Below are positions 39,528 through 40,310 of a DNA stretch of 64,000 nt, in pieces. Location of the stretch: contig CAJWPC010000001.1 of the NCBI GenBank assembly GCA_913045225.1, positions 223,594 through 287,593 of the forward strand, in the 5' to 3' direction. The translations under genes and the position numbers were made by a program. The stretch comes from an uncultured Rhodobiaceae bacterium (GTDB lineage: Bacteria; Pseudomonadota; Alphaproteobacteria; Rhizobiales; TMED25). Each line of letters starts with the position of its first letter. Position 1 is the first letter of the stretch. A model generated the notes under the pieces. It saw only the letters and a list, made by a program, of their open reading frames with translations, ran no database searches and was not told the DNA's origin.

Positions 39528-39902
39528 ATGGAAAAGAAAAATAGAAAGGTGCTAATTGTCGAAGATAACAAACTGAATATGAAGCTATTCAGAGAAATTC
39601 TAATTGCAGAGAATTGCGAAGTTATCGAGTGTGCAGATCCTATGTTCGCAATGGATAAAATTTCAAATGAGTTACCAAACCTCATTCTTATGGATATACA
39701 GTTGCCAAGAATTTCTGGCTATGATTTGATTACTTGGATAAAGGCAGATGCTAACATTTCACATATTCCAATAATTGCGATCACGGCCTTTGCGATGGAG
39801 GATGATAAGGAAAAGATATTAGCGCTCGGGTGCGAGGAGTATATGTCAAAGCCAATCTCTATGGACCCATTTATAAGAAATGTAAATAAATTTCTTGGGT
39901 AA
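39528..39902 (+). CDS. divK: single-domain response regulator, DivK-like
   Basis: 124 aa receiver; VLIVEDNKLNMKLFREIL, LILMDIQLPRISGYDL, K in MSKPIS. Confidence 0.85.
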   Translation: MEKKNRKVLIVEDNKLNMKLFREILIAENCEVIECADPMFAMDKISNELPNLILMDIQLPRISGYDLITWIKADANISHIPIIAITAFAMEDDKEKILALGCEEYMSKPISMDPFIRNVNKFLG

Positions 39903-39952
39903 AAAATTTGAAAAATTTATTTTCAATAAATTAAATTACTATATAATATCAG

Positions 39953-40075
39953 GTGAGTTTCCCTGCGGAGTTGCTCAGGTCCGCCGCATCTCCTGGGTCC
40001 GTAGGGTTTAGGTCGTATTGTTAGTCACTAAATTTGGCCTCCTCCAAATCTAGAGACTGACATATGACCAGATGA
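39953..40075 (+). ncRNA. candidate structured small RNA with anti-SD-like CCUCCU loop
   Basis: TATAAT at 39942-39947; hairpin 1 CCCTGCGGA/TCCGTAGGG (39961-40006); long hairpin 2 GGTCGTAT...ATATGACC (40011-40069) ending in ATTTGG-CCTCCT-CCAAAT. Confidence 0.6.
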
Positions 40076-40142
40076 ATTATAAAAATATCAAGTAAAATAT
40101 GATGAACTTATGTTAACCTTATTGGTTACATTCGGATTAGTA

Positions 40143-40310
40143 TTATTTGATTTTATTTTCTTTAAAATCTACATGTTTTCTGGCAACAGGATCGTATTTT
40201 TTTACGACCAACTTATCTGTCATTGTACGATTATTCTTTTTTGTAACATAAAAATATCCAGTACCAGCTGTACTTTCTAATCGTATCTTTATATTTCCAG
40301 ATTTTGCCAT
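40143..40310 (-). CDS. rpmG: 50S ribosomal protein L33
   Basis: Own translation (absent from ORF track, 55 aa): [55 protein letters not shown]. Confidence 0.97.

Follow-up and report, generated by a model that had tools for sequence, protein, structure and literature searches.

EcpR1 (SmelC291/SmrC10/Sra33), described in Sinorhizobium meliloti (PMC4414408), is a small RNA braking the cell cycle in rhizobia. It is encoded between divK-pleD and rpmG, is stress-induced, belongs to the stringent regulon, is Hfq-independent and has a length of ~101 nt. The RNA consists of two stem-loops: the strongly conserved loop of SL1, UCCGCCGCAUCU, pairs with the gcrA and dnaA mRNAs, and SL2 has a variable stem with the motif UCCUCG, which the same study calls less conserved. 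An EcpR1 transcript was also observed by RNA-seq in a methanotroph, Methylosinus sporium 5 (PMC12403871). A search of the literature collection used here for EcpR1 in marine bacteria and for small RNAs of OCS116 gave nothing on point.

Locus and family of the RNA

The window, i.e. the whole stretch of 64,000 nucleotides analysed, was scanned with cmscan and Rfam 15 at gathering thresholds. Besides four tRNAs, a single other match was obtained, RF02500 (Atu_C6 = EcpR1), at 39958-40074 on the forward strand. The match was full length (model 1-113) and scored 61.7 bits against a gathering score of 60, a margin of just 1.7 bits, with an E value of 3.5e-06 in the window-wide scan. On the short stretch the E value was 1.5e-8 and no other family did better than 0.28, and in the 1.34-Mb genome RF02500 was present in single copy (E 1.7e-8, genome-wide). 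The features of the locus are as follows.

39528-39902, + strand: divK, single-domain response regulator, upstream neighbour (PF00072; best PDB match Caulobacter DivK 1m5t, E 3.1e-34)
39920-39925 and 39942-39947, + strand: putative promoter, TTTTCA and -10 box TATAAT (consensus match only)
39958-40074, + strand: ecpR1-like small RNA gene, 117 nt (RF02500 match, model 1-113)
39961-40006, + strand: SL1 hairpin, outer stem 39961-39968/39999-40006 (8 bp), inner stem 39973-39979/39992-39998 (7 bp) (RNAfold)
39980-39991, + strand: SL1 loop UCCGCCGCAUCU, 12 nt, the same letters as in the S. meliloti EcpR1 loop that pairs with mRNAs (PMC4414408)
40011-40069, + strand: SL2 hairpin with AUUUGG/CCAAAU apical stem (RNAfold); compensatory changes in the alignments
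40038-40043, + strand: CCUCCU hexaloop of SL2, inside the conserved UGGCCUCCUC motif
40143-40310, - strand: rpmG, ribosomal protein L33, convergent with the small RNA (PF00471, E 1.3e-15)

Because the RF02500 match is full length, above threshold and the only one in the genome, the SL1 loop is identical and the synteny with rpmG is kept, the RNA is identified as a divergent copy of EcpR1, with a probability of about 0.95.

The locus had been given in a preliminary description as an unannotated, structured alphaproteobacterial small RNA with an exposed anti-Shine-Dalgarno-like loop, lying in an ORF-free gap of 240 nt with TATAAT at 39942. These observations hold: the divK-rpmG intergenic gap spans exactly 240 nt (39903-40142), and the box lies at 39942-39947. 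Its statement that the RNA is neither SRP RNA nor tmRNA agrees with the covariance models and ARAGORN, which gave no match to SRP RNA, 6S or tmRNA. On the other hand, the proposal of a divergent alpha-r14/cuckoo/CcsR member or of a new family had to be abandoned. The alpha-r14, cuckoo/CcsR-type and 6S families gave no match at E ≤ 5 in the Rfam scan of the short stretch, and the Rfam comparison that the preliminary description had itself proposed places the RNA, full length and above the gathering score, in the known family RF02500. EcpR1 is already catalogued in Rfam, and its novelty as a family is gone.

TTTTCA sits 16 nt upstream of TATAAT, and promoter-like sites numbered 5 in the region against 4.0 expected. 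The -10 box reads TATATAAT in 8 of the 10 aligned same-genus copies and TATATATTAT in the remaining two. No clear Rho-independent terminator and no evident U-run follow SL2, and the end of the RNA is placed near 40074. A terminator-like site at 39992-40012 was rejected, as it overlaps SL1.

Among related genomes, RF02500 was detected at E ≤ 0.001 in 44/61, with 36 of these above threshold, and 14 controls were all negative. Within the window's family EcpR1 was matched in 13 of 14 genomes, the exception (G008) being only 73% complete; scores ranged from 56.7 to 73.5 bits, and a genome of the same genus (G009) stayed below threshold at 56.7. A scan of named genomes for the exact SL1 pattern returned 11 records, all from groups such as the OCS116 cluster, Rhodobiaceae and Rhizobiales TMED25. 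EcpR1 occurs throughout the order, and a class-wide draw also showed it in two families that the taxonomy used assigns elsewhere; their loci (L056-L059) have rpmG synteny as well. In 30 of the 34 loci tested, rpmG follows the SL1 loop 140-680 nt downstream and is encoded on the other strand.

Structure, conservation and covariation

The minimum free energy (MFE) of the RNA in RNAfold was -51.1 kcal/mol, compared with -31.2 ± 3.5 kcal/mol after shuffling (z = -5.8), and none of 200 dinucleotide shuffles was as low. Folded singly, SL2 had a z value of -7.0 and SL1 of -2.6. Two stem-loop domains are thus present, as in EcpR1, and the SL2 loop motif is UCCUCC, differing from UCCUCG in its last base. 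The RNAfold structure reproduces both hairpins at the positions previously described, including the ATTTGG/CCAAAT stem with its 6-nt CCTCCT loop. The two-stem layout formerly assigned to SL1 was retained with corrected lengths, the outer stem of the MFE structure having 8 bp instead of 9 and the inner one 7 bp. An alternative TGCGG/CCGCA pairing (39964-39968/39984-39988), also proposed earlier, can be read in the letters but is absent from the MFE and centroid structures; it would block the invariant SL1 loop.

This loop, UCCGCCGCAUCU, is unchanged in 13/13 family sequences, in which SL1 is nearly invariant while the flanks diverge. The emphasis of the preliminary description had been on the CCUCCU loop, which does exist but is the secondary motif; it overlooked the SL1 loop, which is the experimentally functional element of the family according to PMC4414408. 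Within SL2, UGGCCUCCUCCA is invariant in the 13 family sequences, and GGCCUCCUC hardly varies over 31 sequences from the order. Order-wide, SL2 carries the motif UGGCCUCCUCG; its last base is C in the window's family, and therefore UGG/CCA closes the CCUCCU hexaloop. Additionally, across the 31 order-wide loci the SL2 motif UGGCCUCCUC (40034-40045) nearly equals the SL1 loop in conservation. Its near-invariance hints at a second functional or pairing site, though the published work calls the motif less conserved.

Conservation and compensatory changes in homologous loci, which the preliminary description had proposed to look for, are present in SL2. RNAalifold on the 31 order-wide sequences gave 23 consensus pairs, 11 of them with changes on both sides, mostly in the SL2 stem. 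In the family alignment 93.8% of cells were paired, compared with 31-52% when partners were slid by 1-3 columns, a contrast that is partly by construction, since this alignment also supplied the structure. The covariation score of this alignment was reached by 0/500 shuffles. The SL1 stems were paired in 100% of cells across 9 distinct family sequences, almost without variation, and therefore speak neither for nor against structure by covariation within the family.

Small RNAs of the anti-Shine-Dalgarno alpha-r14/cuckoo/CcsR kind display an exposed loop of the CCUCC type. A new or divergent RNA of that kind, working chiefly through the SL2 CCUCCU loop, would suit the near-invariance of UGGCCUCCUC and its closure into a hexaloop in the window's family, but RF02500 is the only family that scores, conservation is highest in SL1, as it is in EcpR1, and the rpmG synteny also fits EcpR1, so that this reading is considered highly improbable. 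Equally little credence is given to a 3'-UTR, attenuator or bidirectional terminator of divK/rpmG instead of an independent small RNA: the position between convergent genes and the terminator-like call agree with it, whereas the conserved -10 box of its own, the invariant 12-nt loop and the missing U-run after SL2 argue against it, as does the detection of an independent small RNA in S. meliloti by Northern/RNA-seq (PMC4414408) and in Methylosinus by RNA-seq (PMC12403871).

Candidate targets and absence of pleD

If the RNA acts as EcpR1 does, a transcript of ~117 nt would be produced from its own sigma-70-type promoter and fold into the two hairpins. The GC-rich 12-nt loop of SL1 would base-pair with mRNAs of cell-cycle regulators, lowering their translation or stability, and SL2 would stabilise the RNA and display the second conserved motif, CCUCCU. 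Of the candidate targets in this genome gcrA has the best support; pairing there would place the loop over the Shine-Dalgarno region and the start codon. From the S. meliloti experiments and the pairing rank in the own genome we infer that the RNA is probably transcribed and induced by stress, and that it may repress gcrA.

The genes gcrA, dnaA and a RelA/SpoT homologue are all present in the window's genome. Pairing of the SL1 loop was compared with a background of 304-308 genes, taken from stretches of this genome that total 344 kb, with approximate gene starts. The site in gcrA, accessibility included, spans -10..+12 with -13.4 kcal/mol; gcrA ranked 1/309 in the region -30..+15, chosen as the canonical ribosome-binding site (RBS) window, and 12/309 in -150..+100. 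As two targets and two regions were examined and gene starts are approximate, this rank is suggestive only. The raw SL1-gcrA duplex had -18.7 kcal/mol in five close genomes including this one and -12.4 to -15.6 kcal/mol in the others, and part of the pairing reflects the codons for the conserved N-terminal MAWT. The chances that gcrA is a target of EcpR1 in this species are judged to be about even. The gene dnaA ranked 61/309 at the RBS region and 14 over -150..+100; it was rejected as a conserved target, with no consistent site and a pairing not above background in the own genome. A pairing of the SL2 loop with gcrA at +42 was also discarded, being a coding-region site that is weak in several relatives.

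The strongest own-genome pairing of the SL1 loop (-18.0 kcal/mol with accessibility) lies ~52 nt upstream of a gene at ~5884 of L041 (G000:C2:40001-60000). This gene, a possible alternative target, starts MSSKVVLHANAKINLTLDILGKRSDHYHDI and is presumably ispE.

A homologue of EcpR1 with a rewired regulon, in which control of gcrA and dnaA was lost and other mRNAs are targeted, is a possible but rather doubtful alternative. The background-level pairing of dnaA, the restriction of strong gcrA pairing to near relatives, the eleven genes that outrank gcrA over -150..+100 and the absence of any GGDEF protein from the genome are in its favour; it is opposed by the unchanged SL1 loop and by the first rank of gcrA among the RBS-region sites of this genome.

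No GGDEF protein was detectable in the 1.34-Mb genome, and therefore there is no pleD. In most loci outside the family a response-regulator (REC) match lies ~1.3-1.5 kb upstream of ecpR1, and a scan of this gene in two such loci showed a PleD-like REC-REC-GGDEF protein; in the window's family divK itself is directly upstream. Since the two relatives scanned outside the family have the PleD-like gene and none is found here, pleD was lost and EcpR1 kept, which suggests that the pleD neighbour is not what keeps the RNA. The reason for its retention may be the gcrA/dnaA branch or some other function. It is conceivable, although unlikely, that EcpR1 persisted in the marine OCS116 lineage after pleD and every other GGDEF protein had gone, that it now pairs directly with the start site of gcrA, and that SL2 was remodelled into a closed anti-Shine-Dalgarno hexaloop offering a second site for pairing. 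A genome that has shed most of its regulators would then have held on to this riboregulator of the cell cycle.

Comparison with described EcpR1 systems

Work on EcpR1 has concerned rhizobia and, of late, a methanotroph; the RNA is now placed in streamlined ocean bacteria without pleD or GGDEF proteins. The streamlined marine carrier (OCS116/TMED25-type) without pleD, together with the closed SL2 loop, is modestly new. The RNA resembles EcpR1 of Methylosinus sporium 5 in adjoining rpmG, in its two stem-loops and in its assignment via Rfam; the transcript was seen there, whereas here the RNA is identified from its sequence.

With S. meliloti EcpR1 it shares two hairpins of about equal size, the identical SL1 loop UCCGCCGCAUCU, UCCUC in SL2 and a locus that has divK(-pleD) on its upstream side and rpmG on its downstream side. 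In contrast to alpha-r14/cuckoo/CcsR RNAs, for which no covariance model matches, its principal conserved loop is the GC-rich UCCGCCGCAUCU. It differs from S. meliloti EcpR1 in the lack of pleD, so that divK is directly upstream, in the AT-rich SL2 stem, in the SL2 motif (CCUCCUCC here, closed into a hexaloop, versus CCUCCUCG there) and in the predicted gcrA site, located at the RBS/start here and at -109 to -95 in S. meliloti.
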